64,000 nucleotides of DNA. It comes from Tetraselmis striata (Eukaryota; Chlorophyta; Chlorodendrophyceae; Chlorodendrales; Chlorodendraceae). A program made the position numbers and the translations under genes. The stretch lies in NCBI GenBank assembly GCA_006384855.1, contig VCJN01003151.1:1-64000 (forward strand), read 5' to 3'. Shown in pieces: positions 27,563-54,254 of this stretch. How positions within the stretch are numbered: position 1 is the stretch's first letter; each line of letters begins with the position of its first letter. The notes beneath the pieces were generated by a model. The model was not told the origin of the DNA. It worked only from the letters and a program-made list of their open reading frames with translations, and ran no database searches.

Positions 27563-30500
27563 TCAGTGCTGCATCCCGCCGGGCAACGACCGCCTCGGAC
27601 TGGGCGCCGCTTCGGCGGCCGCCGGCGATGCAGAGATCGACGCGCGGCGCCGCTGCTGCGCCAGCTCGCTGGCAACCGCGCGGGCGGCGGCCTGGTGGCG
27701 GCGGGCGCTGGGCGATGGCGATGGCGATGGCGAGGGCGAAACAGAGAGGCGCAGCCCTCCGAGCTCGCCCGCCTCCTCCAGCTCTGCGATCTTGGCCTTG
27801 ACCATGGCTCGGCCGGTGCTCGTGCGCTGCAGCCGCGCCAGCTGCAGCAGTTCAAACTGCCGCTCGCTGAGCTGGCCGCGTTGCCCCTCCAGCTCCACCA
27901 TGCCCGCCACCACTTCCGCTTCCGCCTCTTCGATCGCCGGCTCTGGCGTCGCTGTTGTCTCGGACGGGGCCGTCGGCCGCCACGTCGGGAGCCGCGCGCG
28001 GCGCAACTCGGCCTCGCGCGACTGCAGCCGCGATACCGACGCCTCGAGGCCGATCTTCTCCTCGGTAAGCGCCGCCACGCGGCCGTTGGCGGCGCCGAGA
28101 AGCCCGCGCGTCTTGTCGAGCCACGCCAGCGCATTGGACAGGTCCTTGCGGGCGTCGGAAGCCTCGGCGCTCGACGCCGCACGCGCCACCGAAAGCTCGT
28201 CAAGCTCCGCCGCTAGAGCCTCGGCCGCGGCGCCGTCGTCGACCTCCTCACCGCCCTCCGCTGCTAGGACCTCCAGCTGGGCCGTCATAGCCGCCAGCCG
28301 GCCCTCGCGATTTGCCAGCTCCGCCAGCCGGCCCCGCAACTCGGCCACCTCCGCTTCCAGCGCGCCACGCTCTACGTCCAGCATCGCCGCGCGAGCGCTG
28401 GCGGTGGCAAGCTGTCCCGTCGTACGCTCGAGCCCCGCCACGCGCGCCGTGAGCTGCGCCTCAACCTCGCCCAGCTCACCAGCTGTTCGCCGAGCCACGC
28501 CCTCCTCGTCGTCCCCTGCCGACGCAGCGGCTCCGCGCGGCGACCTCGGGCGTGCCGCCGCGGCACGCAGCGACTCCAGCTCGACGCGCATCGTTTCCAT
28601 CGCAGCCAGCGCTCCCGCCAACTCGCCCAGCTGCCCGCGCTGCCCCTCCAGCTCGTGTAGCGCCGCCTCCAGCGCGGCCTTCTCCGTCGTTAGCTCCGCC
28701 ATGCGCGCGTTGGCCCTGGATAACTGCGCCGCGGTGCGTTCCAGCCACGCCGTCGAGTTGGCCATCTCCGCTTGCAACTCCGCGAGTTCTGCCGCCTGCA
28801 CGTGCCATACAGCGAATACAAATTCCACGCACATTAATAGTCAATACAACATTATCAGCAGCCCCGTTCCGTCCCCCACGTCAACCCCCCCCCCCCCCCC
28901 CCCCCCCCGTGTCGATGGCACAACCGTCCAGCAACAGCATGCGTGTATTTTCGGCACCGGGCGGGGGGGGGGGGGGAGGGGGGGGGGGGGGGAAGTGGCG
29001 ATCGACAGGATAGTAAGGGAGCGCACCTGGGCGTCGCGCGTCGCTCGCAGCTCCTCCAATTCGGCCTGCAGCTCGCCCAGTTGGTCGCCACGCCCGTTGC
29101 CGGCCTCCACCAGTCGACGCAGCCCCGCGAGCTCCTCCTCCAGGTCGCCGATGCGGCCCTCCTTGGCCAGCACCTCCGCTTGCAGCGCCTGCAGCGCACC
29201 CGCCTGCGCCGACACGGCCGCGTCGGCGCCCGCCGCCGCGCCGTGGAGCTCGGACACAGCCTGCCGCTGCGCCGCCAGCGCCGCCTCCGCCTCCTTGGCG
29301 GCGTGCCGGTACTTCTTCGCCTGCTTGGACACGGTCGAAAGGCGCGCATGCAGCTCCGCGAGTTCCGCCTCCGCCGCCTGGTGCGCCTCCCGCAACTCGA
29401 CCAGCTCCGCCTCCGATCGCGCCCTCGGCAGCGCGCCCTGCGGTGACGACGGCACGCCCGTGGTCGAAGGCCGCATGCCCGACAGCATCACCTCCTGCAT
29501 CGCCATGAGTCCCGCCAGCGTCGCCTCCAGTTCCGACACGCGCGCCACCTGGGTGTCCAGCTTGCCCTCGGCGTCCTTTGCCGCCGAGCGGTAGCGCTTG
29601 GCCTGCTTGATCAGCTTGGACTCGCGCGCCTTGGCGGCTGCGCCGGAGGCCGCCAACTCCGCCTCGGCGCGCGCCGCCGCCGCTTGGTGCTCCTCCGTCA
29701 GCTCTTGCATACTATTCAGCGCCTCGCACGCAAGGTTGGCCTGTTCAGCGGAGACACAGAGGGGTGGGTGCACGTTAGTACCAGACCCTGGGACATGGGC
29801 AAGTCATGCATGCTACCCTATCTACTACACCGCACAGTAGCGCTACTGCCGCCGGCGAATGGCAGAGTGCCACCACCTTCTAGATTCGAATACACTTTTT
29901 TATTGCTTATTATGTGCCAAAACATATCGCTTTTTGCTCCAGTAATCGCATGAATAGCAAGAACAGCTGTTGCGAGACAAATTATCTGTCCCAACCGGAA
30001 CACTTTTCTACACATTGTTAAAAGAGAACTGCTGGTTAAGAAGAGCACTGTCTTGTCTGTCTTGCTGGTAAGACAAAACAAGTTTGAATGTGCCCCAGGC
30101 AGCCGACCAACTGGTGTCAGAAGGGGTGACTGAGATTTACCATCCGCTTCCAAGGTGGGGTCCTGGGTTTAGCCCAATAACAAGAATGCTATCGGTGCCA
30201 ACAGGGTAATCAGAACGCTGCGAATAAGGGCCTGCCGTACCTGCCAGAGGTCAGCTATCCAGAGACCGCACAATAACGGAACTAAATGATAATGGTGTTG
30301 TTAACATCAAATTGAGGCTTATGTTTTAGAACCCCATGAGAACCCTTTTCACCAGCCTGGAATTTGGCTTGCATGCAACATTTGCTATTGTTCTGCTAGA
30401 GTTGCGTCTACATTTGACATTTGGAAGGCACAGCAGGTTCTTATTCGAAGTGTTCTTGTATTTGCCTCGGCAACCGGGGTAATAATATATAAACGACATT

Positions 30501-33500
30501 GAATACCTCCGGTCCCCTTTGTTGCGCATTTTGAGCTGCAATTGACTAATGGTGTATGTCTACTGCGGTATTTCAGAACAGTCGACTACTTTTCAGTTTG
30601 TATCAATAAATTCGCGCCCATAGCATACCCTCATGTGGTGACGATGGTACACAGGGGGAGGCGCATGTGCGTCGAGGCGAGGGCGCACCTGTGCCACCAG
30701 CTGCGCGAGGTCAGCCTCCATCATGTGCTCCTTCTGCCGGCTGTTATTCAGCATGCCCAGCCGCTCCGCCAGGCTCTCCTGCAGCAGCGACACCTCGCTG
30801 GACATCTCTCGGATGAGGTCCCTGCTCGCGCGCACCTCCTCCTCCGCGCGCACCGCGCGCAGCTCCGCGGCGCGCAGCTCCGAGAGGAGCCCCTGCAGCT
30901 GCTCATGCGGCACGTCCAGCAGGCCTGCGCCCTCGCTGTACGCCGCCTTGTCCAAGAGGCGGTAGGGGTCGCGCTCGCCCGGCGACTTGGCGCGCACCAT
31001 CTCCTGCGGCGCTGCCTGAGGGGGCCAAGAAGGCAGCCAGTCAGCGTGCTGCCTGTGGCAGTTGCTTCTGCTGCATGTATGCTGTTGCAACGCCAAGGTG
31101 GATGGGATAAGGTATACATAATGTAGACGGCAGTGCTGCTTCGTTAGGGGTCGGTGCCGGGAGCAGTGGGCAACTCACCGCCGCGTCCATGGCAAGCTTG
31201 GACGGCTTTGCAGGGCGCTCCTCGGACGGTGGCTCCATGGCCGCCTCCGGCTCTGCCTTGAGGCTGGGCTTGGGCAGTGCCGCTGGGCGCCGCTGACGTG
31301 CGGTGTCCAGGTCCTCCGGGCTTTTCGGTGACCGTGGGGCCTTGGCTTCCGAGGCGGCAGCTGACGACAGCGGCGCCGCAGAGCCGTCGCTGCTTATGCT
31401 GTAGTGGCGCAGGGGTGGCGCAGAGCTGCCCCTGGTTGGGCCGGGCGGGGCCGTCGCCACGGGGCACGTCAGCTGGACGCGCGTCACGTTGAGCCGTGGC
31501 ATGTTGGCGGCCGAGCCGCTGTCGTCCAGCAGCAGGGGCGGCTCCATCGGGCCGTGCAGGTGAGCCAGGGAGGCGTCCGCCAGCCGCAGCGACATCGGCT
31601 CCCACGGATGCTCCAGCGCCAGCGGCTCGCCATAGCGGTCGCCCAGCAGGGCGCGCAGGTCGCCCGCCACTCGCCGACTCTCCTCCAGCAGCGCGGCAGT
31701 CGTTGCCGGCGGGGCGCCCAACGGGGTGCCCCCGCCCAGCGCGGCCGGCGGCAGCGCCATCTTCACCCGCGGCGTGCGCTTCGCAGCGCGCAGGCCCGCC
31801 TTGACCGCCTCAAACATGGTGTAGGCTGCGCCGGTGCCGGCCAGCAGCAGCAGCAACTCGGCGCCCCCAAGCGGCATGTGAAACCCATCTCCGCCAGCGC
31901 CAGCTCCTCCTCCGCCTCCTCCACCAGACCCGCCCCCGCCTCCTCCTCCGCCACCTCCACCGCCCGAGCCTCCGCTGCCACCGTTGTTGGCAGAGCCTCC
32001 AAAGCCGGCGCCAATGCGGTCAGCAGCAGCTTTTGACGCGGAGCCAAGAGCATCCCAGAAGCCGCCGACGTCCAGCCACCCAGGCAGGCCGCCAGCGCCG
32101 CTGCCTGAGAACAGGCCGGGTGCGGCCGCCGCCGCCGCCGCGGCAGCAGCTGTTGTCGGTCGTCCATCCCTCTCCTTCTCCGCCCCCTCTCCGACGGCGC
32201 CGCCCTGCTCCTCCAGCGCCGCGGCGCGCTGCGTGATGTCTGCCAGGCCGCTCATTAGGTCGCCTGTGAGCGCGGCGGAGCGTGCCTGCAGCGAGGCCAT
32301 ATCCGCCTGCAGCCCCGGCAGGCCGCCCCCGGGCGCCGTGCCAGCCTCAAGGTGGCCGAGCGAGGTCTCCAGGGCACACAGGCGCGCCTTAACGTCGTCA
32401 GCGAGCGACGCCACACGCGTGGCGAGAGCTTCCACGCTGGCACGAAGGCCACTGGTGGCTGTCCCCTCCATGCCCGCCAGATGCGCGGCGGTCGCCGCCA
32501 AGCTGGTGGCCACCTCGGACGACAGCGCGTCCGCCAGGCTGCCCAGCTGGTTGGCATCCGCAGCCATCTCCGGCGCCCGCGTGCGTGGCAGCGGGCCGGC
32601 CAGGGCGCTGCCCAGAGCGGTCAGCGCCGCGTCGTAGTCTGCGGACAGCACCTTGGCGAAGTTGAACAGCTCGTGCAAGTCGGTCTGCACGTCGGAGGGC
32701 CGCCGGTGCGGTGGCTGGCTGGGTGCCAGGCTGAGATGCGGCCCTGAGAGCGCGCCCGGCTCGCCCCACCGGCGCGCTAGCTCTGCCTTGGCGGCGGCTG
32801 CCGGCCCTGGGCCGCCCAGCTGGCGCCGGAGGGCCGCGGTCTCCTCCATCAGCGCCGCGACGGATGCCTGCAGCGCCACCACCTCGGCGCGCGAGGCGTC
32901 CAGCGCTTCCCGGGCGTCTGCCACCTCTGCCTCGGCGCGCGTCCGCGCGGCCACAGCCTCCGCGATGCCGGACGCCTGCTGAGCCGTCAAGCCACCCACA
33001 CGCTCCAGCCACAGCGCACCCTTCGCCTTCTGAGCCTCCACCTCCGCATGGAGCGCTGCCACGTCCGCCGCGGCGCGCGCCACCTCCCCAGCGGACGACC
33101 GCTTGGAGGCCTCCATGCGCGCAAGCTCCGCCGCCGCCGCCTCCAGGTGCTTCGCCGCCGTTCGGACGTTTGCGTCCGCCTGGGCCCTGGCTGCCTCCAG
33201 CTGGGCCTTGGCCTCCGCAGACTCCGCCGTCAAGGAGCTCACTCGCTGCAGCCAGAGGGCGCTCTTCCGCCGCTGCTCCGCTACCTCCGCCGTCAACGCC
33301 GCTACCTGCGTCTTGCGCAGTTCTGCCTCGCTGGCCGCCGCAGACTTGGCCGCCTCGCTGCGAGCCAGCTCCGCCTGCGCCGCGTCCAGGCGCTGCTGGG
33401 CACCCTCGATGGCGTTCTCCGCGGCGCGTTGGGCAGCCGCCGCTGCAGCCTTGGACGACGCGGATTCCGCCGTCAGCCCGCCGACACGCTCCAGCCACAG

Positions 33501-36500
33501 CGCGCTCTTCTGCTTCTGCTCCGCCAGCTGCTGTTGCAGCGCGCCCAGCTCCGACTTGGCGTCCGCGACCGCCCTCAGAGTGGACTGCTTGGTGGCCTCC
33601 GTGGCGGCAAGCTCTGCCAGCGCGGCGTCTAGCCTCTCACGCACCGCATGCGTCTCCGCGGCGCCCGCCGCCTTGTCCGCAGCAGACTCAGCCGTGAGGT
33701 TGCTGACCAGTTGCAGCCAGAGCCCTGCCTTCTGCCGCTGCTCGGCGATCTCCCTCTGCAGGGCCGCCAGTTCCCCCTGGGCCGATGCCTGGGCAGACTC
33801 CTTGGCGGCCTTGACCTTGGCGGCCTCCGCCACCGCAGCCATCAGCTGCTCCTGGTTCGCCACAGCCTCTGCCTGCGCCTGCCGCTTTTCGGCCTCCAGC
33901 TCCGCCTTGCCGGATGAGGAATGCACAGTCAGGGAGCTCAGGCGCTCCAGCCACTGCGCGCCCTTCGCCCTCTGAGCCGCTACCTCGGCCTTGAGTGACT
34001 CCACTTCCGCCTTGGCGCGCGCCACCTCCCCGGCGGACGACTGATTGGCAGCTTCCATTCGCGCAAGCTCAGCACGCGCAGCGACGAAGCGCTCCTGGGC
34101 CTCCGCGGCCTGCGCCTGGACCGCTGCCTCGGACCTCGCCAGACTGTCCTTCAGCGAGGCGTTCTCGCCGGTGAGGCTGCTCACCCGGCTGAGCCAGGTG
34201 CTGCTCTTCACCCGTTGCTCATCCGCAAGCTGCTTCAGCGCCTTCACCTCGGCCTGGCCGCGTTCCGTGGCGCTGGCAGCCGCCTGCCTTGCAACCTCCT
34301 TTTGGGCAAGCTCAGCCACGGCAGCATCCAGCTGGCGCTGCAGCGCCTGCGTCTTAGAAGCCGTTTGCATCCTGGCAGCCTCCACCACAGTCTTGCTCGC
34401 GGATGACTCCGCCGTCAGGGCGCTCACACGCTCCAGCCACCTCGCCGCCTTGGCCTTCTGCTCCGCCACCTCCGCCTTGAGCGCCTGCATCTCCACCTCG
34501 CGCTGCTCAGCCTTGCTGGTCGCAGATTGCTTGGCAGCCTCCATCTGAGCCAGCTCAGCCAGAGCGGCCTCCAGCCTCTCCTGAGCAGCCTGTGCCTTGG
34601 CATCAGCCTGCGCCTTGGCATCCTGCACCTCAGCCTTGCTGGCGGATAACGCGGTTGTCAGGGCGCTCACGCGCTCCAGCCACCTTGCCGCCTTGGCCTT
34701 CTGCTCCGCCACCTCCGCCTTGAGCGCCTCCATCTCTCCCCGACGCTGCTCAGCCTTGCTGGTCGCAGATTGCTTGGCAGCCTCCATCTGGGCCAGCTCA
34801 GCCATGGCAGCCTCAAGTCTCTCCTGAGCATCCTGCGCCTTGGCATCAGCCTGCGCCTTGGCAGCCTTCACCTCCGCCTTGCTGGCGGATGACTCCGTTG
34901 TCAGGGCGCTCACACGCTCCAGCCACCTTGCCGCCTTGGCCTTCTGCTCCGCCACCTCCGCCTTGAGCGCCTCCATCTCTCCCCGACGCTGCTCAGCCTT
35001 GCTGGTCGCAGATTGTCTGGCAGCCTCCATCTGGGCCAGCTCAGCCGTGGCAGCCTCCAGCCTCTCCTGAGCAGCCTGCGCCTTGGCATCAGCTTGCGCC
35101 TTGGCAGCCTTCACCTCAGCCTTGCTGGCGGATGACTCCGTTGTCAGAGCGCTCACGCGCTCCAGCCACCTTGCCGCCTTGGCCTTCTGCTCCGCCACCT
35201 CCGCCTTGAGCGCCTCCATCTCTCCCCGACGCTGCTCAGCCTTGCTGGTCGCAGATTGCTTGGCAGCCTCCATCTGAGCCAGCTCAGCCATGGCAGCTTC
35301 CAGCCTCTCCTGAGCATCCTGCGCCTTGGCATCAGCCTGCGCCTTGGCAGCCTTCACCTCCGCCTTGCTGGCGGATGACTCCGTTGTCAGGGCGCTCACA
35401 CGCTCCAGCCACCTTGCCGCCTTGGCCTTCTGCTCCGCCACCTCCGCCTTGAGCGCCTCCATCTCTCCCCGACGCTGCTCAGCCTTGCTGGTCGCAGATT
35501 GCTTGGCAGCCTCCATCTGGGCCAGCTCAGCCATGGCAGCCTCAAGTCTCTCCTGAGCATCCTGCGCCTTGGCATCAGCCTGCGCCTTGGCAGCCTTCAC
35601 CTCCGCCTTGCTGGTGGATGACTCTGTTGTCAGGGCGCTCACACGCTCCAGCCACCTTGCCGCCTTGGCCTTCTGCTCCGCCACCTCCGCCTTGAGCGCC
35701 TCCGTCTCTCCCCGACGCTGCTCAGCCTTGCTGGTCGCAGATTGCTTGGCAGCCTCCATCTGAGCCAGCTCAGCCATGGCAGCCTCCAGCCTCTCCTGAG
35801 CATCCTGCGCCTTGGCATCAGCCTGCGCCTTGGCAGCCTTCACCTCCGCCTTGCTGGTGGATGACTCTGTTGTCAGGGCGCTCACACGCTCCAGCCACCT
35901 TGCCGCCTTGGCCTTCTGCTCCGCCACCTCCGCCTTGAGCGCCTCCGTCTCTCCCCGACGCTGCTCAGCCTTGCTGGTCGCAGATTGCTTGGCAGCCTCC
36001 ATCTGAGCCAGCTCAGCCATGGCAGCCTCAAGTCTCTCCTGAGCAGCCTGTGCCTTGGCATCAGCCTGCGCCTTGGCAGCCTTCACCTCCGCCTTGCTGG
36101 CGGATGACTCCGTTGTCAGGGCGCTCACACGCTCCAGCCACCTTGCCGCCTTGGCCTTCTGCTCCGCCACCTCCGCCTTGAGCGCCTCCATCTCTCCCCG
36201 ACGCTGCTCAGCCTTGCTGGTCGCAGATTGCTTGGCAGCCTCCATCTGGGCCAGCTCAGCCATGGCAGCCTCAAGTCTCTCCTGAGCATCCTGCGCCTTG
36301 GCATCAGCCTGCGCCTTGGCAGCCTTCACCTCCGCCTTGCTGGTGGATGACTCTGTTGTCAGGGCGCTCACACGCTCCAGCCACCTTGCCGCCTTGGCCT
36401 TCTGCTCCGCCACCTCCGCCTTGAGCGCCTCCGTCTCTCCCCGACGCTGCTCAGCCTTGCTGGTCGCAGATTGCTTGGCAGCCTCCATCTGAGCCAGCTC

Positions 36501-39500
36501 AGCCATGGCAGCCTCAAGTCTCTCCTGAGCAGCCTGTGCCTTGGCATCAGCGTGCGCCTTGGCAGCCTTCACCTCCACCTTGCTGGCGGATGACTCCGCC
36601 GTCAGGGCGCTCACACGCTCCAGCCACCTTGCCGCCTTGGCCTTCTGCTCCGCCACCTCCGCCTTGAGCGCCTCCATCTCTCCCCGACGCTGCTCAGCCT
36701 TGCTGGTCGCAGATTGCTTGGCAGCCTCCATCTGAGCCAGCTCAGCCATGGCAGCCTCCAGCCTCTCCTGAGCAGCCTGTGCCTTGGCATCAGCCTGCGC
36801 CTTGGCAGCCTTCACCTCCGCCTTGCTGGCGGATGACTCCGTTGTCAGGGCGCTCACACGCTCCAGCCACCTTGCCGCCTTGGCCTTCTGCTCCGCCACC
36901 TCCGCCTTGAGCGCCTCTGTCTCTCCCCGACGCTGCTCAGCCTTGTTGGTCGCAGATTGCTTGGAAGCCTCCATCTGGGCCAGCTCAGCCATGGCAGCCT
37001 CCAGCCTCTCCTGAGCAGCCTGTGCCTTGGCATCAGCCTGCGCCTTGGCAGCCTTCACCTCCGCCTTGCTGGCGGATGACTCCGTTGTCAGGGCGCTCAC
37101 GCGCTCCAGCCACCTTGCCGCCTTGGCCTTCTGCTCCGCCACCTCCGCCTTGAGCGCCTCTGTCTCTCCCCGACGCTGCTCAGCCTTGCTGGTCGCAGAT
37201 TGTCTGGCAGCCTCCATCTGAGCCAGCTCAGCCATGGCAGCCTCAAGTCTCTCCTGAGCAGCCTGTGCCTTGGCATCAGCCTGCGCCTTGGCAGCCTTCA
37301 CCTCCGCCTTGCTGGCGGATGACTCCGTTGTCAGGGCGCTCACACGCTCCAGCCACCTTGCCGCCTTGGCCTTCTGCTCCGCCACCTCCGCCTTGAGCGC
37401 CTCCATCTCTCCCCGACGCTGCTCAGCCTTGCTGGTCGCAGATTGCTTGGCAGCCTCCATCTGGGCCAGCTCAGCCATGGCAGCCTCAAGTCTCTCCTGA
37501 GCATCCTGCGCCTTGGCATCAGCCTGCGCCTTGGCAGCCTTCACCTCCGCCTTGCTGGTGGATGACTCTGTTGTCAGGGCGCTCACACGCTCCAGCCACC
37601 TTGCCGCCTTGGCCTTCTGCTCCGCCACCTCCGCCTTGAGCGCCTCCGTCTCTCCCCGACGCTGCTCAGCCTTGCTGGTCGCAGATTGCTTGGCAGCCTC
37701 CATCTGAGCCAGCTCAGCCATGGCAGCCTCAAGTCTCTCCTGAGCAGCCTGTGCCTTGGCATCAGCCTGCGCCTTGGCAGCCTTCACCTCCGCCTTGCTG
37801 GCGGATGACTCCGTTGTCAGGGCGCTCACACGCTCCAGCCACCTTGCCGCCTTGGCCTTCTGCTCCGCCACCTCCGCCTTGAGCGCCTCCATCTCTCCCC
37901 GACGCTGCTCAGCCTTGCTGGTCGCAGATTGCTTGGCAGCCTCCATCTGGGCCAGCTCAGCCATGGCAGCCTCAAGTCTCTCCTGAGCATCCTGCGCCTT
38001 GGCATCAGCCTGCGCCTTGGCAGCCTTCACCTCCGCCTTGCTGGTGGATGACTCTGTTGTCAGGGCGCTCACACGCTCCAGCCACCTTGCCGCCTTGGCC
38101 TTCTGCTCCGCCACCTCCGCCTTGAGCGCCTCCGTCTCTCCCCGACGCTGCTCAGCCTTGCTGGTCGCAGATTGCTTGGCAGCCTCCATCTGAGCCAGCT
38201 CAGCCATGGCAGCCTCAAGTCTCTCCTGAGCAGCCTGTGCCTTGGCATCAGCGTGCGCCTTGGCAGCCTTCACCTCCACCTTGCTGGCGGATGACTCCGC
38301 CGTCAGGGCGCTCACACGCTCCAGCCACCTTGCCGCCTTGGCCTTCTGCTCCGCCACCTCCGCCTTGAGCGCCTCCATCTCTCCCCGACGCTGCTCAGCC
38401 TTGCTGGTCGCAGATTGCTTGGCAGCCTCCATCTGAGCCAGCTCAGCCATGGCAGCCTCCAGCCTCTCCTGAGCAGCCTGTGCCTTGGCATCAGCCTGCG
38501 CCTTGGCAGCCTTCACCTCCGCCTTGCTGGCGGATGACTCCGTTGTCAGGGCGCTCACACGCTCCAGCCACCTTGCCGCCTTGGCCTTCTGCTCCGCCAC
38601 CTCCGCCTTGAGCGCCTCTGTCTCTCCCCGACGCTGCTCAGCCTTGTTGGTCGCAGATTGCTTGGAAGCCTCCATCTGGGCCAGCTCAGCCATGGCAGCC
38701 TCCAGCCTCTCCTGAGCAGCCTGTGCCTTGGCATCAGCCTGCGCCTTGGCAGCCTTCACCTCCGCCTTGCTGGCGGATGACTCCGTTGTCAGGGCGCTCA
38801 CGCGCTCCAGCCACCTTGCCGCCTTGGCCTTCTGCTCCGCCACCTCCGCCTTGAGCGCCTCTGTCTCTCCCCGACGCTGCTCAGCCTTGCTGGTCGCAGA
38901 TTGTCTGGCAGCCTCCATCTGAGCCAGCTCAGCCATGGCAGCCTCAAGTCTCTCCTGAGCAGCCTGTGCCTTGGCATCAGCGTGCGCCTTGGCAGCCTTC
39001 ACCTCCGCCTTGCTGGCGGATGACTCCGTTGTCAGGGCGCTCACACGCTCCAGCCACCTTGCCGCCTTGGCCTTCTGCTCCGCCACCTCCGCCTTGAGCG
39101 CCTCCATCTCTCCCCGACGCTGCTCAGCCTTGCTGGTCGCAGATTGCTTGGCAGCCTCCATCTGGGCCAGCTCAGCCATGGCAGCCTCAAGTCTCTCCTG
39201 AGCATCCTGCGCCTTGGCATCAGCCTGCGCCTTGGCAGCCTTCACCTCCGCCTTGCTGGTGGATGACTCTGTTGTCAGGGCGCTCACACGCTCCAGCCAC
39301 CTTGCCGCCTTGGCCTTCTGCTCCGCCACCTCCGCCTTGAGCGCCTCCGTCTCTCCCCGACGCTGCTCAGCCTTGCTGGTCGCAGATTGCTTGGCAGCCT
39401 CCATCTGAGCCAGCTCAGCCATGGCAGCCTCAAGTCTCTCCTGAGCAGCCTGTGCCTTGGCATCAGCCTGCGCCTTGGCAGCCTTCACCTCCGCCTTGCT

Positions 39501-42500: not shown

Positions 42501-45500
42501 CGCCTGGCTCTGCAGCACCGCCTTGGAGGCAGCCTGCCTGGCGGCCTCCATGCGCGCCAGCTCAGCCTTGGCAGCATCCATGCGCTCCCGGCTTGCCTGC
42601 GCCTCAGCATCAGCCCGAGCCTTGGCAGCTTCTACCTCTGCCTTGGCGGCAGAGGACTCGTCGGTGAGGGCGCTCACACGCTGCAGCCACCTGGCTGCCT
42701 TGGCCTTTTGCTCGGCCACCTCAGTCTTGAGCGCCTCTACCTCGTGCTTGCGATGTTCAGCTGTTTTGTCTGCGGACTGCTTGGCAGCCTCCATCTGAGC
42801 CAGCTCCGCCAGGGCCGCCTCCAGCTTCTCCTGAGCCGCCTTGACCTTGGCATCAGCCTTGGCGTTGACAGACTCAAGCTGCTGCTTCGTTTCACCGGAC
42901 TCTTCAGTGAGGGCGCTGAAGCGCTCCACCCAGCTAGCTGCCTTGGCCTTCTGTGTTGCCAGTTCTGCCTTCAGCACCTCAACCTCGGCCTTGGCGCTCT
43001 GCACCTCCTTGGACTGTGACGGAGCCACGGTTTCAGGAACAGCTATGGAGGGAGCCCTGCGCGCCTTGGCACCTCTCTCTGCAAACACCTGCGCGCGGAG
43101 AGACTCCATCTCGCCCTGGATGAAGTCCACGGCGCTGGCTGCCGATGTCATCGATGCCTGCATGGCCACGAGCTCATCCATAGCAATGCCCAGCTTGGCT
43201 TGCGCTGCTTTGGCCTCTGCTGCTGCTGCCGCTTGCACCTGGGTGACTTCAGCTTTGGCCTCTGCAGCCTGCGTTGTCAGGGAAGTCACGCGCTCCATCC
43301 ACAGTGCAGCCTTCTTACGTTGCTCCACCGCCTCGGCCTTCAGCGCCTCCACCTCGCGCTGGCGCTGCTCTGCGCTGCTCTCAGCGGACTGCTTGGCAGC
43401 CTCCATCCGAGCAAGCTCAGCCAGAGCAGCATCCAGCCTCTCCTGGGCTGCTTGCACCTCAGCATCCACCTCCGCCTTGCCGGCGGATGACTCAGACGTC
43501 AGAGTGCTCACACGCTCCAGCCACCTCGCCGACTTGGCCTTCTGCTCTGCCACCTCCGCCTTGAGGGTCTCGATATCCCCCTGACGCTGCTCAGCCTTGC
43601 TGGTCGCGGATTGCTTGGCAGCCTCCATCTGGGCCAGCTCAGCCCGAGCAGTCGTCAGCCTCTCCTGGGCAGCCTGGGCCTCGGCATCAGCCTGCGCCTT
43701 GGCAGCCTTCACCTCCGCCTTGCTGGCCGATGACTCGGTTGTCAGGGCGCTGACACGCTCCAGCCATCGTGCGGCCTTAGCCTTCTGCTCTGTCACCTCC
43801 GCCTTGAGGGCCTCGATCTCGACCTGCTGCTCCTCAGCCTTGCTCTCTGTAGACCTCTTGAAAGCCTCCATCTGAGCTAGCTCAGCTTGGGCTGCATCAA
43901 GCTTGGCCTGCGCCGCCTGTGCCTCAGCATCCGCTCCCCGCTTGGCGCTCTCCAGCTCTTGCTGGGTAGCTGCTGAGTTAGCTGTGGCACTGCTTAGCCT
44001 CTCCACCCACAGCCCTGCCTTCTTGCGTTGCTCCGCAACCTCTGACTTGAGAGCTTTCACTTCGGCTTGGCTCTGAAGGACAGCCTTGGAGGCTGCCTGC
44101 CTGTCTGCTTCCAGCTTCTCAAGCTCAGAGGCAGCAGCTTGCGCCTTCTCCCGGGCCGCCCGCTCACCAGCATCAGCCTCAGCCCTGGAAGCCTCCAGCT
44201 GCTCCCTGCCTGCCGATGTCTCAGCCGTAAGAGAGCTCACGCGCTCCAGCCACAGCGCATTGTTGTGCCGCTGGTCGGCGGCCTCCTTCTGCAGCGAGGC
44301 CTCCTCAGGGTTTGGCTTCGCACCGGCGGCGATGCTGGCGGCTCGCATGTTGGCCAACTCCGCCAGCACCGCGTTGAGCTTGGCCTCACTCTCCTCTGCC
44401 TTTGCTGTAAACGATGCCTGCGCGGCGGCCAGCGCTGCAGCCGCCCGAGACTTCTCCTTCTCCAGCGCCTCTCGGCTGTGTGTACGGTGGTCGTTCATAC
44501 GGCTTGCCATTGCGTCCATCTCACCACGAATGTGCTCAACCGCAGCAGCGGCAGACTGCAGAGAACCCTCCATGGCTGCCAGCTCCTGCATCGCCCCGTA
44601 CAGCTTTGTCTGGCTCGTCTGGAACTCTGCCTGCTTGGGGGAGTCGCCAGTGCCCTGCTTGGAGGATGGCTCTGAGGTCAGCTTACTGACACGTGCCAGC
44701 CACAATGCGCCCTTGGCGCGCTGCTCCGTCACCTCAGCCTGCGGGTTTGGGCAATGGATCAGCATCAGCTCCCAGGGCTGGCCTTCACATAGTGCGGAGC
44801 AAGCAGCGGATTGTGCATCCAGAGGTGTTCGGTGCTTGCACACATGTGGGGTTGACGCCCATATCTTGTCTCTCGCGTGACGACACAGATAATACTATCC
44901 AGATTCAAATGCATCCAGGGCAGGCCTGTGCGATGCCCTCCACTATGCTGGATTCGTGTGCGTATGTTGCTAGCAAACTTTGCAGCATGTCTGCATAGCC
45001 CACCCTCTCGATGGAAGTGCCCAGCAGAAAACTACAATCACACCTACGTCATCTAATCTGTGGGCAGTGATCCCAATGCGGGCGCCGGCATGCAGATCAG
45101 GCGGTCTTACCTTGAGTGCTTGGACCTCCGCCTGGCTAGCCGCCACAGCGCGCTGCGCTGACGCCTGCACGCCCTGGCTGCGCGCCAGCTCCGCCAGCGC
45201 GGAGTCTAGTTTGGCCTGGCTGGCCTTGGCCTCGTCCTTGGCGGCACGGCGCGCCTCTGCTAGCTCCGCCTTGGCTGCTGCCGAGTCGGCCGTCAGCCCA
45301 TTCACGCGCGCGAGCCACGCGCTGCTCTTTGCGCGCTGTGCTGCCACCTCCTCCCTCAGCGCCGCTAGCTGAGCCTCCGCGCGCGCCACCGCCCCGGTGC
45401 TCGACTTCTGGGTCGCCTCCATGCGCGCCAGCTCAGCCAGCGCTGCGTCGAGCTTGGCCTGGGCTGCTTTTGCCTCGGCATCCGCCTGCGCCCTGGAAGC

Positions 45501-48500
45501 CTGCAGCTCTTGCTTGGTGGCAGCCGACTCTGCTGTCAGGGAGCTCACACGCTCCAGCCACAGCGTGCCCTTCTGCTTCTGAGCCGCCACCTCCGCCTTT
45601 AGTGCTGCCACCTCTGTCTGGCTGGCCTTGGCCTTGCTAAACGCGGATGCCTTGGCGGCTTCCATGCTAGCCAGCTCGGCTGCGGCGGTCTCCAGCTTCG
45701 CCCGGGAGGCGGCCGCCTCCGCTTCCGCCTCAGCCCTGGTGGCCTTCAGCTTCTGCTTGACCTCTGCGGACTCAGCATTCAGCCCACTGACCAGGTGCAG
45801 CCACAGCCCCGCCTTCTCCCGCTGCAGCGCCACCTCGCGCGTTAGGGCGGCCACCTCCTCCTCGCTGCGCTTGACTGCCTGCAGCGCAGACTTGTGGGCT
45901 GCCTCCAGCCGCCCAGACTCAGCTGCCGCAGCCTGCAGCTTCTCTTGGGCCGCCTTGGCCTCCAGCTTTGCCGCCGCCTGGGCATCGGCCAGCTCCTGCC
46001 TTGCGGCTGCTGACTCGGTCGAAAGCCAACGGACCTGCACCGGGCCAGAGGAGCGAATGGACGTTCAGCAGACAATTCGTGGCACGGTGGGATCCAACAC
46101 TGTGGCCATCGCAGGGCAGCTGGTACCTGTCTCCATGAATGCAAGGCGGAAGCATATGTGGATTCGACGGCAGTGAACCGAAAGCGCCGCGAGCAGGAAG
46201 GGCAAGCATGCAGCCGGAGCTTATTAAGCACACTCTACAAAACCTGAACAAGCAATAGCCTATCCCTGATATCACATGTGCCCAAGAACGGACAAAACTT
46301 TGCAGTCTGTGGCACCATCCAATTGGCGGCGTGACCCTAGTAGCCAGAGCAGCCGCCCTTAAGTATCCCGCTTGTGAGAAGGCCGTCACGGAACATCGTG
46401 CCCCTCATGATCAAGATTTATGAATACGCCATACAGCACCCGCCGCACCTTTTCGATCCAGCGTGACGCCTTGGATTTGTGCTCCGCGACCTCCCCCTTG
46501 AGCGTCACCACCTCAGCCCTCGCCCGTGCCACCTCCCCAGACGCTGCCTCCTTGGCGGCTTGCATCTGCGCCAGCTCAGTAGCCGCCGCTTCCAATTGGG
46601 CCTTGGTCGCGGCAGACTCCGCTTCAGCGGACGCCTGTGCTGCCGCCAGAGCCGCCTTGGACTTCCCAGCCTCGTTGGTGGCGCGGCTCACACGCTCCAG
46701 CCAGATGGCACTCTTAGTGCGCTGGTCGGCGAGCTCCAGCTTCAGGGAAGCCACCGCTGCCTTGGCCACGTCGGCGCCCTGCGCCACAGATGCCTTGGCA
46801 GCCTCTGCAGCCGCCAGCTCCACTGCTGCAGCTTGCAGCCTCTCCTCTGCTGCCTTTCTGTCTGCCTTAGCCTGGGCTTGCGCGTCTGCCAGCTGGCGCT
46901 TAGTCGCCTCAGACTCAGCTGTCATCACGCTGACCTTCTCAACCCAGCGATTGGCTTTCTTCTTCTGCTCATCCAGCGCGCTCTTCAGCGCTGTCACTTC
47001 CCTCTTGGCGTGCTCCACCACCTTCGATGCGCCCTCCTTGGCAGCCTGGGCGGCTGCCACCTCAGCCATTGCAGCCTCCAGCTTGGCCTCGCTGGCCTTG
47101 GCATCCTCCGACGCTCGCTACAATGTTGAGGCAGCAGCAGCACACATACGCAGTGCACGTCAGTTCCACGCACAGCAGCGGCAGCGGGTCGTGCATGCAC
47201 TACAGGAGAGGTGACAAGGGAGCATAGGTAATGGGCAAAGGGGAAAAGGTGGGGAGAGGGAGCAGCACCAGCTGAGCCTGGGCAAGCTCCTTCTTGGCGG
47301 CTGCAGCCTCTGCCGTCAGCGAGCTGACCTTCTCCAGCCAGGCCCCACCCTTGCGGCGCTGCGCGGTCAGCTCCGCTCGCAGGGCGTCCACCTTTGCCTT
47401 GGCCTCCGCCATCGCGCCCGAGGCTGACGCCTTCAGAGCCTTGGTGTCGGCCAGTTCGGCCAGCGCAGCGTCCAGCTTCTTTTTGGTCGCAGCGGCCTCG
47501 TCATCAGCGGCTGCCCTGGTGGCCTCCAGCTCCTGCTGTGCCGTTGCCGCCTGAGCAGTGGCATCGCTGACGCGCTGCACCCACAGCGCTCCCTTCTTAC
47601 GCTGGGATGCGACCTCTTGCCGCAGAGCCGCCACATCGGCCTTCCTTGCTTCTGCCGCAGCCAGTGCTGCAGCCTTCTCCCCTTGAACACGCTCCAGCTC
47701 CGCAGCAGCTGCCTCCAGCCGCCCAGCGCTGCTCTCACCCTCTTTTGCTGCCTCCAGCCGAGCTGCAGCCGCCGCCTTTTTGGCCGCCCCGGCCTCCACA
47801 GTCAGCGCGTTGACGCGCTCGACCCACACGGCGTTCTTCTTCTTATGTTCCATCACCTCGGCGCGAAGGACATCCACCTCAGCCTGCCCACGAGAAATTG
47901 CCTCTGACGCAGAGTCCTTCTCAGCTTCCACCTATCCGCGCACACCATGGCAAACCAATTAGCGTCGCATGCCTGGGATTGGCTGATGGGCAGCTAACAT
48001 GTGCCTGCATTTGTCTACGGCATGGACAGCATGGACATTGGTGCCCTCTGACAATTTGTATGCGTGTGACACAAGTCGCAGCGGCGCCATCAGTGGGGTG
48101 CATTTCAGAAGGAGGAGTTGCGCACGGAAGTGCATGTTGCGTCCCCGTCCTGCGTCCCGTTCTCGCACCTGAACAAGCTGGGTGATGGCAGCCTCCAACT
48201 TCTCCTGGCTGGCCGCTGCCTCAGCCTCAGCCTTCTGGCGCGCCCCGGCCAGCTGCTTCTCCCCAGAGGCTGCAGCAACACTCAGGCTGCTCGCACGCTC
48301 CTGCCAGCCGCGGGCCTTCTCCCTCAGGTCAGCGATATCCGCGTTGAGAGTGTCAATCTGCGGGCAGAAGACACGGTGTCACGCTGCTAGCAATTCAAGA
48401 ACACGGCCTGAACCGTCTTAAGCACAAAAAAATCACTCTATGCAAGTGTGTGCGGGAGTGTATACGAGACAGGCATTCAGGTAGGCAGGGTAGAAGATAG

Positions 48501-51500
48501 AAGCGCAACGTCCAATTTGCCGATGTAACACCGCACCTGCCGCTGGATGCTGCCTTCCGCCCGGTTGTCCGCGCTGCGAGCTGATTCAAGGTGAGCCAGC
48601 TTGGCAAGGGCCGCCTCCAGCTGCGCCTGGCTTGCCTCCACTTGCGCAGCGGCCTCCGCTCGCACTGCCCCCAGGCGCTCCTCTGCAGCCGCCGCTTCTG
48701 ACGTCAGCCCCTTGACGCGCAGCACCCAGCGCGCGTTGGCTGCACGCTGCTGCTCCACCTCCGCCCGCAGGGCAGCAATGTCGCCGCCCGGCTGCTGCTG
48801 GGCAGACGCGGAAGATCCGCCGCTCCGGATGGCGGCGTTGGACGCAGGGAGCTGCTCCTCCGATGCCGCTGCCTCCTGGGCGCCCTTGGACGCCTGCCTG
48901 GCCTCCGACAGCGCCGCGCTCAGGGCCTCCACTTCCGCCTGCAGTGTTCCCACCTCGGCAGCGGCCTCCTTGGTGATGGCCTCGAGCTGACCCGCCTCGG
49001 CCATGGCTGCTTCCAGCCGCTGCTGGCTCAAACGCGCCTCTTTTTGGGCTGCCTCTTGCGCCTCGGTGAGGTCTTGCTTCAGGGAGCTTGCCTCTGCTGT
49101 GAGACCATCCAGCCTCTGCCCCCACAACGAGGCCTTCTCATCCGCCGCGGCCATCTCCTGCGTCAGTGCTGACACCTATGTGCAGCGTGGGAAGGGCAGA
49201 AGGGGGGAAGACGGTGGGGGGGGGGGGGGGGGGGGGGGGGGGGTCTACGCTGTCAGCAACTCCCGGGAAACGTTCTATCTATGACTTTCATTCCGATAGA
49301 ATGGCCACAAGCCTATGTATTGAACAGCCAAGACAGTAAATCTACCAAAAAGGTCCCTTGCGAGTAGCCAAATCAGAGAGCAATGCCAAGAAAATAAAAA
49401 GACGTGCAGAGAAAAGGAATTTACTCAGTTGCTAAGCGCCGTGGCTTCTGGCTATCCTCACATGAAAGTCACTCGCCAGCACATTAGATCAACACGCCGA
49501 GACCAACTGGCAGACAGAGACTCCTATCGAGCATGGGATGCAACCCACCCACCTGAACACGCATGCGGTTGGCTGCCTGGCTCGCGCCCATCCGTGCACC
49601 TTCCAGCCGGCGCAGCTCTGACATGGCGCCTTCCAGCCGCTGCCTGGACGCCCGGGCCTCTGAGGCAGCCGTGGTTGCTGCCTCGTTGAGGTCCTCCCAC
49701 AGCGAGGCAGCTTCGGCCGTCACCTCAGCCACCCGGGCTCCCAGCATGCCGCTCTTCTCTTGCTGCTCCACCACCAGCTCGGTCAGCGACACCACCTCCG
49801 CCCGAACTCCCTCTAGCGCCTGCAGACCCGCTAGCCGGCGATCCTCTGCAGCAGATATCTCCGCCACTGCCGCCTCCAGCTTGCTCTGGACTTGGCGGGC
49901 CTTGTCCTGGCTGGCTGTAGCCAGTTGCTGCGCAGGTGTCTGGGCTGTCTCCGTATCCTCCTCCGCCAGGCTCTGCCCGGCATCTTGCCCTACACCCTTG
50001 TCATCAGCCTGTGGCTGGAGTGTCTTCTGTAGCTGCGACAGCAGACATGTTGACACACACCATCAATCCGCATGCTCTGTCACGTATACTTACCCCCCCC
50101 CCCTTTAACACCCAAAGCAGATAACATCGCGCACTAGCAGAAAGATACATGAGCCTCTGGCAGTGCGATTGGGGCAAGGACGCATTTCTCACCAATGTAT
50201 CTGGTACACCCTGCGGCGGCCCAACCAGGTTGCCCAGGTGCATGGACACCTTGGCCTGCAGCTCCTGCTTCAGGCGCGCCGCCTCAGCAGTCAGCTGGCT
50301 GACCTTGGCCACCCAGAGGTTGCCCTTGGCGCGCTGCGAGGCCACCTCCCCTTGCAGCGCAGCCACCTCGCGCTGAGTGCGGCGCAGAGTGTCGCTGATG
50401 GCCGCCTTCTCTGCCTCCACGCGGGCCAGCTGCTCAAGTGCGCGGCGCAGCTTGTCCTGCGTCACGCGCGCCTCCTCCTGGAACGTGCTCCGTGTCTGCG
50501 TCAGCAGCTCCTGGGCTGACCGTGCCTGCTCCGTTAGGCTACTGACATGCCTGTGGGGAAGCGGGTCCAGGAAGGGTAGCTTCAGCCAAAAGGGTAAGTA
50601 CAGGTGAGCAAAAGACCCGGCAGAGGACTGGCCGGTGGCAACCCCTGTCTCGTCCAAGGCATATGAGACAAACACCGCACACTCGGATAGACACAGAACT
50701 AAACTGCCTCTTTGCGTTATCGTTTCACCTGCCAGCTTTAAGGAGATGCATGCCGCCAGCAATGGGTCAAGTGTGTCGTTAAAGCCTGCATCATTCCTCT
50801 GCCTCATTCCACACCCCCCCCCCCCCCCCCCCCTCCCGAGCGACCCCTTGATGTGGCTGCTCGGCGGCACACACCTCAGCCACAGGGCGCTCTTGGCCTT
50901 GTGTTCCTTGACTTCTTGTTCCATGGTGACAAGTTCAACACGCAGGCGGTCTGCAGCCGCGCATGCGGACATTTTGGACGCCTCCATGCGCGCCAAGTCC
51001 GCCTTGGCAGCATCAATGCGCTCTTGCTGCGACCGTGCCTGTGCGGCCGTCGCCGCCTCGGCGTCCGCCAGCTGCCGCTTCATCGCCGATAGTGTGGAGG
51101 ACGATGCGCTCATGCGCTGTAACCACACGTTGCTCTTCTTCTTCTGCTCGGCAACCTCTGCTCGCAGCGCTGCTACGCCTGCCGCAGCGCGCTCCGCTGC
51201 CCGGGTAGCGCCTTCCTTGGCAGACTGCATGCGGGCAAGCTCAGCCCCTCTAGAGGCCAGCTGCGCCTCGTTCTTGGCCGCTTCAGCCCGAGCTGCCGTT
51301 TGCGCCTCGCTCAGCGCCTCTTTGGCAGACGCCGCCTCGGTGGTCAGTTGGCTCACACGGGACACCCACACGCTGCTCTTCTTTTTCTGCTCTGCTACCT
51401 CCGCCTTCAGTGTCGCCACCTCCGCCTTGGCAGCCTGCCCAATCACATTCAGAAATGCCCCAAGCAGGTCAGATGCAAATTGGAGTCAAGCAATAGCACA

Positions 51501-54254
51501 AACTCAAACTATACAGCCCGCAATTTCCCCACCCAGTTTAAAGAAAGGCGAAGCATACACAAGCGAGCCGCTACCGGACCCGCTCAATGTTAGGCCAACC
51601 AGACCCGGCCAACAAATACCGCCATGTTCATGACAAATTTACGCTTGTGTTGATGGGTACACGCACACAGCGCGAAGGATGAGACACTCCATGCTCTACA
51701 TTGGAACAACTCAGTTGAATGCCACAGCCTAAACAAGCGGGACTTGCACACATCTGCCACACAAGTTTCAGTGGGGCAGGGGCCCTCCAGAGACGTGCCT
51801 TCACTGCCTGCGACGCGGACGCATTGGCGCCCTCCACGCTCGCCAGCTTGGCGGTGGCTGCGTCCAGTCGCGCCTGCGCCGCCGCCGCCTCCTCCTCAGC
51901 TGCGCCGTGGGCCTCGGAGAGGTCATGCTTCAGGGCGTCTGCCTGGGCGCTCAGCTCCCCAACACGCGCCACCCAGGCAGCTTCCCGCTCTCGTTGCTCA
52001 GCAACCTGCGCCCGCAGCGCTTCAACGTCTGCCTCGGCGGCTGCTGCCTTGCGGATGGCGGACACCTCAGAGAAGGACGGCTCTTCTGCGGTGGAACGTG
52101 TCTCCCAAGGGCGTGACATCGCTGCTGTGGGGTGGAGTGTACACCTCTTGCTGCGGCGCTGACCCAGATGGCGCCTTCTCTGTAGTGTTTGCCATCCCTG
52201 CCCCAGCAGCCTCCACCCTGGCCAGCTCAGCGGTAGCAGCGTCCAGCTGCCACACACACACACACACACACACACACGCCACAGGTGTCTGTCAGCAGCC
52301 GCGGGTGTTCTAGGGGAGGTACGGCAACACTGACAATCCCCTGACAGGGTGAGTGAGAAGCGACAACCATCGCCACCAGCAGCACAGGGTCCCTCCCCAC
52401 CTGTGCGGTGCGCTCCGCGAGGCTGCGGTTGAGCTGCTGGATGGCTGCGTCCATGGTCACCACCTTCCCGGCTGCCTCAGACAGCGCCAACCCCGTCTCG
52501 GCCACAACGCCGTCCATTGCCGCGGCCGCCTCTGCTTCTGCCTGTAACTGGAGGGCTGTTACCTCTGCACGCATGGCGTCTGCCTCTGCTGAGCCTGACA
52601 GCCCTGCCGACTCAAGGCTCGCCAGCTTGGCAGACGCAGCTAGCAGCTTGGCTTGCGTGTCCGTACCAGTGGGCGCTTTGGCACGGGGCAGCAAGCTGGC
52701 CCGGAGGGTGGCCAGCTCTGCGAGGGCCGCATCCACCTGCGTGGAGGAGCGGCCAGCCATGAGCACTAAACACAGACATGCGCCCACCACACATTATCAT
52801 GCACCTTGCAGCAGCCGCCCGCTCACCTCGGCCGAACGCTCTGTTAGGCTGCGATTCAGCTGAGCAATGCGCTGCTCTAGCGCTGCCATCTTGGTACCAG
52901 CCTGCACCAGGGCGGCCTCCGGGCCAGTGGCTGTCGCGGCCACCCGAAGTGCCTCTATCGTAGACACTTTCTTAAGCTCTAAGCTTGCATTATCCAGCTG
53001 GGGCGTTTTGCAACCGGAACGGGGACGCAATGGGGTCGGCAGGGAAAAGGGGAGGGGGCATAGAAGTGAGTCACTAGACATGGTCAGTGAAGGGAAGGGG
53101 GTGATTGTTGCAGGGACGCCATGCAAGGCCAGCCCACCTGCGTGGTGCGCTCTGTGAGGTCCTTGCGCAGCTGCGAGATGGTGCCCTCCAGCGAGCGCAC
53201 CGTTGCCGCGGAATCCCGCGCCTCGGCAGCCCGCTGCTGCTGTGCCTCGGCAATCTGCGCTCGCAGCTGCCGAATGACCTCCTCACCGGAGGTTGCCCGC
53301 GGATTGTAGCCCCTTACTCCCTGCTGGATGGTGTGCGCTGCCAGTTGCGTCTCCATAGGCCCAGTGTTTAGCCAGAGCGCATCTCCCTGCAGCACGGCGC
53401 TAGACAAGTCAGAATCTGCTGCGCCTGGTGGCCTAGCCCATTGATCCTGCCCCTCTCACCCTTACCCTCTTCTCCGCATGGTAATGCCCTTAAAGACTGG
53501 TAAAGTTTGACTGCGCTCTGCCCTGCCGAGTACACTCCCTCTCCTCACAGCAGCCCATCGGCAGTAGCCAGCAGCAGTGCCGGCCTCACCAAGTCGAGAC
53601 GGGTTGTATGGTGCGCACCTGAGCGGCGGATAGCGCCGTGTATGCCAAAAGGAGGCCCGGAGCGTAGTCACCAGCGATCAGTCGTTCCGCGAAAGCGGCT
53701 TGCTTCGGATCTACAGACGGCGGACCTGGCGATGCGCCGGCCGCGGCGGCAGTCGCAGCGCTGCCCCGCGGCGACGGCGCACCGGGACGTGGCGAGGGTA
53801 TCCCGCTGCTGCGGGTCCTCGAGGAAGGCGGGGAGCGCGACCAGCGAGAGTCCGCGGCCGCCCGCGCCGCGAGGCGCCGAGTGGAGCTGCGGTAGCCGGG
53901 CCGGCCGAGACTGCCCCAGCCCCGGCCCCCGCTCGCCACGCTGCTGAGTGACTGCCAGCCCGCCTCGCTACCAGCGTGGCTGCGTCGGCGCTTGGGCTGC
54001 GCCCGGCAAGCGGCGGGCACCCCGACCCGCCCAGCGGCTTGTTGGAGCGGGCCGGCGGAGGTGGAGGAGGGTGGCGCTGCAACCCACGCCGCCAGGCGGC
54101 GCGAGTACCAGCGCTGCGCCGGCCGGCCCGCCGGCCGGCTGTATGTCAGGCCGCCACCGACGTGAAGCCGTAGCGGCCGAGAGTTTCCGACCAGGGCGCA
54201 CACTGCTGGGCGCCCAGCGCCGCCGCGCAGCGCCGCGCCGGTGGGCGCCACCAT
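27563..54254 (-). CDS. Giant coiled-coil protein of about 7,350 residues built from 81-residue modules (17 exons)
   Basis: I do not recognise this as a named family. Exons by eye: 54254-53619, 53386-53138, 52997-52827, 52736-52401, 52246-51805 (internal frame change), 51434-50875, 50550-50250, 50032-49553, 49175-48537, 48357-48169, 47931-47269, 47117-46449, 46034-45111, 44738-31179, 31015-30689, 29740-29027 and 28795-27563 (TGA). Nearly all junctions are phase 0, and the module pattern runs through them. The N-terminal 210 residues are Arg/Ser/Ala-rich and could be a plastid or mitochondrial presequence. Then about 60 copies of an Ala/Glu/Lys coiled-coil module follow, each with W-L-x-R-V-S-x-L-T and A-E-L-A-x-M-E-A. 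After the modules come a Gly-rich linker, one hydrophobic segment and more coiled coil. The C-terminus is basic. A scaffold or tether is likely by composition, but its location is unknown. It could be two genes if the 29.7-30.7 kb intron is wrong. Confidence 0.8.
28885..28992. repeat. C24 and interrupted G29 runs facing each other inside one intron
   Basis: The C run 28,885-28,908 and the G run 28,963-28,992 (one A at 28,977) lie 54 bp apart in the intron between exons 16 and 17. They are complementary and could pair in DNA or pre-mRNA. Confidence 0.9.
29741..30688 (-). other. 948-bp AT-richer intron between exons 15 and 16 of the giant gene
   Basis: It separates Q-L-V-A-Q (exon 15 end, GTGCGC donor) from A-N-L-A-C-E (exon 16, acceptor GCTGAACAG). 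Base composition from 29,870 to 30,640 is clearly more AT-rich than the other introns, with no coding signal. It may hold an old insertion, or be the spacer between two genes. Confidence 0.5.
31805..31866 (-). other. Hydrophobic segment, possible membrane anchor, in the giant protein
   Basis: Encodes G-G-A-E-L-L-L-L-L-A-G-T-G-A-A-Y-T-M-F, about 19-21 mostly nonpolar residues, flanked on the C-terminal side by K-A-G-L-R-A-A-K-R. It directly follows a long Gly-rich linker and is the only such stretch I saw in the protein. Confidence 0.55.
31877..31985 (-). other. Gly/Ser low-complexity linker
   Basis: More than 30 glycines with a few Ser and Ala between the helical part and the hydrophobic segment, encoded by GGN repeats (GCC/CC on the plus strand). 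Confidence 0.85.
34440..40070 (-). repeat. Tandem array of about 24 coding units of 243 bp (81 residues)
   Basis: Unit spacing is exactly 243 bp over more than 5 kb, and adjacent units are almost identical in DNA, not only in protein. Each unit reads A-A-R-W-L-E-R-V-S-A-L-T, then T-E-S-S-A-S-K-A-E-V, then A-Q-E-R-L-E-A-A-M-A-E-L, then A-E-Q-R-R-G-E. Eighty-one residues equal 11 heptads plus 4, so each unit adds one coiled-coil stutter. The outer units are more diverged. The near identity implies recent expansion or gene conversion, and the true copy number may differ from that in this assembly. Confidence 0.95.
36055..39456 (-). repeat. Higher-order repeat: 7-unit block (1,701 bp) duplicated in tandem
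   Basis: Units at 36,055-37,755 follow the order A B C D E A B by their diagnostic substitutions, and 37,756-39,456 repeats A B C D E A' B. Markers: the C unit with GCATCAGCGTGCGCC and TCCACCTTGCTGG at 36,541 and 38,242; the D unit with CCTTGTTGGTCGC near 36,940 and 38,641; the E unit with GATTGTCTGGC near 37,198 and 38,899. All are offset by 1,701 bp. A' at 38,971 differs from A at one base that I noticed. Confidence 0.85.
41220..42700 (-). repeat. Three 486-bp (162-residue) two-module repeats in the same exon
   Basis: Pairs of modules, one with W-L-Q-R-V-S-A-L-T-D-E and one with W-V-T-R-L-S-G, recur at 486-bp spacing (markers near 41,263, 41,749 and 42,235). They are more diverged than the 243-bp array, so they are an older or less homogenised expansion with a dimer as its unit. 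Confidence 0.85.
49216..49243. repeat. 28-G run in an intron of the giant gene
   Basis: Lies in the intron 49,176-49,552, about 40 bp upstream (in transcript sense) of the acceptor CACATAG. Confidence 0.9.

Follow-up and report, generated by a model that had tools for sequence, protein, structure and literature searches.

An 18-exon gene on the minus strand

The window, i.e. the whole stretch of DNA analysed here, comprises positions 1 to 64,000 of a Tetraselmis striata contig (VCJN01003151.1, referred to as C2544). Chaining of splice signals gives one minus-strand gene, hereafter gene 1, that runs from the ATG at 54254 to the TGA at 27563 and has 18 exons totalling 22,086 nt, which encode 7,361 aa with no internal stops. 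A first-pass annotation made from the sequence had proposed a single gene of ~27 kb and ~7,350 residues in 17 exons; our model has the same two ends and one frame throughout, but one exon more. All 17 introns have GT-AG borders and 16 of them are in phase 0. A frame problem had been noted in exon 5; we infer a 64-nt intron at 52144-52081 that removes it and restores the frame, although the acceptor (gaagag/CCG) is inconspicuous. The features of the gene are as follows; exon borders come from splice-signal chaining, with further evidence in brackets.

53619-54254, minus strand: exon 1, N terminus rich in Arg and poor in acidic residues; two of its motifs recur in two paralogues (also genome search)
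53138-53386, minus strand: exon 2
52827-52997, minus strand: exon 3
52401-52736, minus strand: exon 4
52145-52246, minus strand: exon 5
52081-52144, minus strand: putative 64-nt intron
51805-52080, minus strand: exon 6, first clear module (also profile; the gene finder gives other borders)
50875-51434, minus strand: exon 7, modules
50193-50550, minus strand: exon 8, modules
49553-50032, minus strand: exon 9, modules
48537-49175, minus strand: exon 10, modules
48169-48357, minus strand: exon 11, one module
47269-47931, minus strand: exon 12, modules
46449-47117, minus strand: exon 13, modules
45111-46034, minus strand: exon 14, modules
31179-44738, minus strand: exon 15, most modules, then a helical, Gly-rich and hydrophobic block (also ORF)
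41209-42833, minus strand: two-module (486-bp) repeats inside exon 15 (repeat analysis)
34373-40075, minus strand: near-identical array inside exon 15, 23.5 units of 243 bp, a copy number that depends on the assembly (repeat analysis)
32183-32693 (approximate), minus strand: L-rich helical segment that starts with VQTDL and precedes the Gly-rich stretch (translation)
31875-32015 (approximate), minus strand: Gly-rich stretch (translation)
31803-31859, minus strand: hydrophobic segment ELLLLLAGTGAAYTMFEAV (mean hydropathy 1.29)
30689-31015, minus strand: exon 16, with the conserved SSEV domain at 30689-30811 (also genome search, alignment)
29027-29740, minus strand: exon 17, QANLACEALNSMQE segment and coiled coil (also alignment)
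27563-28795, minus strand: exon 18, C-terminal coiled coil, basic tail and stop TGA

Exon 15 is open over its 13,560 nt, while the remaining two frames of this strand hold 146 and 163 stops; the longest minus-strand ORF of the window is found here (44894-31041, 4,617 codons). In 16 of the 18 exons, codon position 2 has the lowest GC content; in exon 5 it ties with position 3, and exon 1 has no dip. Some of the junctions could be checked because the sequence or spacing of an 81-residue module continues across them: the exon 7/8 junction reads LWLRHVSSLT, matching the module, the exon 12/13 junction preserves its spacing, and the 81-residue register is kept across the introns. A gene finder returned 12 of the 18 exons identically, an agreement that is circular because it was trained on gene 1 itself; exon 1 was not predicted at all, exons 2, 3, 6 and 8 came out altered, and exon 15 was split. 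Beyond the stop codon, TGTAA, a poly(A) signal of the chlorophyte type, occurs at 27221 and 27006, where it may have arisen by chance.

The 81-residue module, its periodicity and its evolution

A profile of the module has 69 matches in gene 1, and 64 of these span at least 60 profile positions. The first-pass estimate of some 60 Trp-marked coiled-coil modules of 81 residues is thus borne out, but not the statement that every exon carries one: exons 1-5 and 16-18 are without a match above 6 bits. The protein contains 78 Trp residues, which are spaced by exactly 81 in 51 of the 77 successive pairs, and 85 of the 86 modules above 40 bits in gene 1 and its paralogue gene 2 have Trp at module position 25. 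L11, K21, R28, S30, L32 and T33 are among the best conserved positions besides this Trp in 74 distinct modules, which were chosen for carrying it.

Hydrophobicity over the array peaks sharply at a period of 3.52 residues, or 81/23, a value that is given exactly by ten heptads and one hendecad; it corresponds to 23 core positions per module. A separate table of core positions is partly circular, as its positions were picked from the consensus. In the diverse modules only, the power at 81/23 is 2.6 versus a maximum of 1.16 in 500 shuffles, and it is just 0.1-0.2 at 7/2, 18/5 and 11/3. In a window test for a period of 3.5, 65 of 73 and 39 of 39 windows in the modules of gene 1 were positive, as were 12 of 13 in its exons 16-18 and 40 of 43 in gene 2; the counts were 7 of 12 and 16 of 19 in a second paralogue, gene 3, and only 3 of 10 in a metagenomic relative, P0005. 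We infer that the array forms a continuous, left-handed and oligomeric coiled coil. With the coiled-coil rise of 0.1485 nm per residue, it would then extend over ~823 nm (~0.8 µm), or ~12 nm per module.

One Trp per unit could also mark a chain of compact helical bundles, as in spectrin, instead of a continuous rod. From an input alignment with a one-module shift, four modules were predicted to be mostly helix (mean pLDDT 70, pTM 0.31), and two of them show a helix break just past the Trp core. These breaks are in keeping with bundles; the prediction is of low confidence and neither proves nor excludes hinges. Against bundles, the hydrophobic period runs across module borders at exactly 23 per 81, and Pfam has no spectrin match in exon 15 or in the other gene 1 exons scanned. 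We regard such a chain as very improbable.

The units of the array at 34373-40075 share ~96-97% identity, a superperiod of seven units reaches 98.5%, and mean dN/dS among 22 modules of the array is 0.23; it is 0.46 among the other 63 modules, for which 1,890 of 1,953 pairs were usable and the rest saturated. A 1,263-bp block of gene 1 (41314-42572) matches gene 2, which lies 45 kb away, at 93.3% identity, with dS 0.156, dN 0.047 and dN/dS 0.30. Among the 25 matches listed between the two genes, any further ones at 90-93% come from these units in another register, and all remaining ones have 71-76% identity. These data point to a recent exchange between genes 1 and 2 and to selection on the protein. 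Repeat gain, loss and exchange are the best reading of how rod length changes.

Relatives of gene 1

Searches of the T. striata genome covered the assembly of 224 Mb in 2,903 contigs. Among solved structures, the rbcL product of this assembly is closest to 1gk8, the Rubisco of Chlamydomonas. With the module as query (E <= 1), there were at least 90 matches, at least 88 of them on C2544 and there all in genes 1 and 2; two matches off this contig have E 0.45 and 0.93. The two paralogues share the contig with gene 1. Gene 2 (90.6 kb, minus strand) has a main frame of 2,632 codons with 24 near-full modules, and gene 3 (134.4 kb, plus strand) is, according to an approximate model, ~2,440 residues long with no module. 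The N-terminal motif had 18 matches at E <= 10, in which genes 1, 2 and 3 stand at E 4.5e-11 or better (the paralogues at 7e-12 and 4.5e-11) and the next match at 0.38; in this search it was found in the three C2544 genes only and not at the loci on C889, C1756 and C2674 described below.

The SSEV query had six matches in the whole genome, in gene 3 (2e-13), gene 1 exon 16 (1.5e-9), C889 (3e-7), twice on C1756 and once on C2674, the last three weak when taken alone (E 0.017-0.025), and no match in gene 2. The gene on C889 repeats the exon 16-17-18 order of gene 1 and reads without interruption through the exon 17/18 junction (DAQ/AAEL; 53% identity, E 8.5e-8). At two places on C1756, an SSEV domain is followed by an exon 17-type segment in rows that were joined by hand across presumed introns. 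These relatives favour exons 16, 17 and 18 being parts of one gene, and given the order kept in C889 and C1756 we reject the gene break that had been suspected at 29.7-30.7 kb. By eye, Gly-rich and hydrophobic segments are recognisable near the C889 match, the first C1756 match and the C2674 match, and helical L-rich segments resembling that of gene 1 in gene 2, gene 3, C889 and C1756.

Protein database searches, in which just the candidates sharing most words with the query were scored, returned one relative of gene 3, the metagenomic protein P0005 of 1,659 aa (E 5.8e-71; 7,987 candidates scored). The two share the Gly-rich stretch, the hydrophobic segment and SSEVALLQESLAERMTVLGNS, which contains the SSEV motif, and in the alignment they diverge past the SSEV domain; the module was not seen in P0005 by eye. 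Thus, the family is not confined to the T. striata genome. The source label of P0005, 'chromosome segregation ATPase', is without support because no Pfam domain is above cut-off. P0005 is listed as one protein where the gene 3 model has several introns, and its ends look like read-through into introns; from one species to another, members of the family may vary strongly in how many introns they have. Viral contigs searched with P0005 gave no match.

With the region of gene 1 after the modules, no match was found in the protein database at E <= 10 (1,293 candidates scored), and with the module alignment none at E <= 1e-10, the cut-off set for that search (7,996 candidates scored). The Pfam scan covered exon 15, the frames of exons 1, 2, 7-8, 12, 16, 17 and 18, and P0005, and gave nothing over cut-off in any of them (in exon 15 just CheX, E 0.084); for the exons scanned, this agrees with the earlier view that the gene falls into no named family. 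Exon 14 had one weak match among solved structures, SUN2 (E 0.007). A literature search, with most subscription journals outside its reach, returned no description of such a protein.

The relatives in its own genome rule out that gene 1 encodes an orphan protein. Judged by sequence, it is not something entirely new but the giant member of an unnamed algal family in which most relatives have no such module. The domain SSEVxLLQESLAER is present in exon 16 and the Arg-rich N-terminal motif in genes 1, 2 and 3; gene 1 also has a Gly-rich stretch followed by a hydrophobic segment, one of doubtful membrane-span character.

This hydrophobic segment is the best in gene 1 (residues 6378-6396) and lies after the rod; at a mean hydropathy of 1.29 it is marginal as a membrane span, for which 1.6 is usual. 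A second, weaker segment is at residues 192-210 (1.18). The segment of gene 2 reaches 1.38, and those after the Gly-rich stretch in gene 3 and P0005 reach 1.72 and 1.84. Residues 1-190 of gene 1 contain 28 K/R versus 4 D/E. A Twin-Arg-type string in gene 1, SRRLAAWV, reads SRRLSAWV in gene 2 and SHRL in gene 3 and has no hydrophobic core directly after it by eye. The acid-poor, Arg-rich N terminus, together with an analogy to MFP1 (see below), weakly suggests that the protein may be located in the plastid. In our judgement, the paralogues conserve their N-terminal motifs more strongly than mere targeting would require, which hints at a binding function as well.

The C1756 match at 45.7 kb and the C2674 match at 70.5 kb have near-identical translations by eye; either the locus was duplicated recently or the assembly contains both haplotypes. 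One more family member possibly lies at C2674:12443-14824 (plus strand), where the exon 17-18 region has three matches with E 1.7e-5 to 0.05. Exon 18 itself (window 28004-28813, minus strand) has two further self-matches to the exon 17-18 query (E 2e-8 and 2.6e-6), which suggests that the C-terminal part of gene 1 contains another internal repeat, now diverged.

A model for gene 1 and its alternatives

We lean towards a model in which gene 1, a nuclear gene, encodes a membrane-linked rod or tether of an unnamed family that has been extended by the module and changes its length by unequal exchange and conversion. In this model, the family would have the part order Arg-rich N terminus, coiled-coil rod, helical/Gly-rich/hydrophobic block and C-terminal coiled-coil domain (SSEVxLLQESLAER), and in gene 1 the rod would have grown to ~64 tandem modules, each with ten heptads, one hendecad and a core Trp, so that the array could reach the length estimated above. 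The hydrophobic block would anchor one end of the rod at a membrane, and partners would bind to the basic ends and to the conserved domain at the C terminus. The number of modules would set the reach of the tether and would be altered by unequal exchange and conversion, both within the array and between gene 1 and its neighbour gene 2. The gene is presumably expressed, and a tether or ruler would be the simplest function of its product; the first-pass annotation had likewise thought of a very long tether or scaffold.

Alternatively, the protein could be a soluble filament-former, in which modules in register or staggered give a filament with a 12-nm repeat, the hydrophobic segment is a buried helix and there is no anchoring. 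The very regular 81-residue register with its core Trp and the marginal hydropathy in genes 1 and 2 fit such a filament; the Gly-rich and hydrophobic block speaks against it, as gene 3 and P0005 also have this block, with scores typical of a membrane span, and it is seen by eye at C1756 and C889. We consider this filament unlikely. Still less probable in our judgement is that the gene is decaying or that the locus holds several genes, the frame being split for instance between exons 15, 16 and 17. In favour of this, the intron before exon 17 is 948 nt long, and the gene finder missed or altered exons 1, 2, 3, 6 and 8; against it, the frame is unbroken over 18 exons, dN/dS is well below 1, the N-terminal exon is conserved in two paralogues, and other loci keep the part order of the C-terminal region, with C889 reading through the 17/18 junction.

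Giantin, golgins and rootletin are very long coiled coils that serve as tether or scaffold, and an 81-residue module with a core Trp is, to our knowledge, not familiar from any of them. In the exons scanned, no golgin model passed its cut-off, the best being Golgin_A5 in exon 12 with 17.5 bits versus 31.7. MFP1 is described as a protein with an organelle-type N terminus and a membrane segment that precedes its long coiled coil (PMC10801857). Gene 1 also combines a long coiled coil, a hydrophobic segment and a supposed organelle-type N terminus, but its segment comes after the rod, a position that does not fit MFP1 as described. SAGA1 and SAGA2 are large coiled-coil proteins of the Chlamydomonas pyrenoid with CBM20 domains and Rubisco-binding motifs (PMC13167743). 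The gene 1 product is likewise a large algal coiled-coil protein, but CBM20 was found neither on C2544 among the 25 CBM_20 matches listed in the assembly nor in the gene 1 pieces scanned. The Rubisco-binding motif, in the form of the pattern that we used, has 0 matches in the models of genes 1 and 3 or in the gene 2 main frame, and on these two counts gene 1 does not fit SAGA1/SAGA2 as described there. The gene 1 protein may work like a long membrane tether, and we assign it to no named family.

Long coiled coils serve cells as tethers and rulers, and we know of few proteins that approach micrometre length. As a tentative and, for now, doubtful extension of the tether model, a membrane-anchored coiled coil of the plastid could, in a green-algal lineage, have been turned into a ruler nearly a micrometre long with a Trp-marked 12-nm unit, its length tuned by adding units and swapping them with its neighbour. 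Such a ruler would rank with the longest single-chain rods known and would give order to plastid membranes or the pyrenoid over cell-scale distances. Because genes with ~64, ~24 and 0 modules share one contig, the relation of rod length to module number is directly testable. Genes 1-3 also offer a clear example of how protein length evolves through repeat exchange while dN/dS stays below 1, in a conserved algal protein family that is without a name in the family libraries used here.

Other frames on the contig resemble mobile elements. Between genes 1 and 2, at C2544:74.8-78.5 kb (minus strand), lie putative transposase-like frames, presumably of the MULE type with a SWIM-like zinc motif. In the window, the frame at 22235-23374 (plus strand) has Phage_int_SAM_1 over cut-off and Phage_integrase below it, i.e. 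an N-terminal domain of the tyrosine-recombinase type, and is likely a mobile element; by eye, a similar frame is present at C2544:158.6-160.2 kb.
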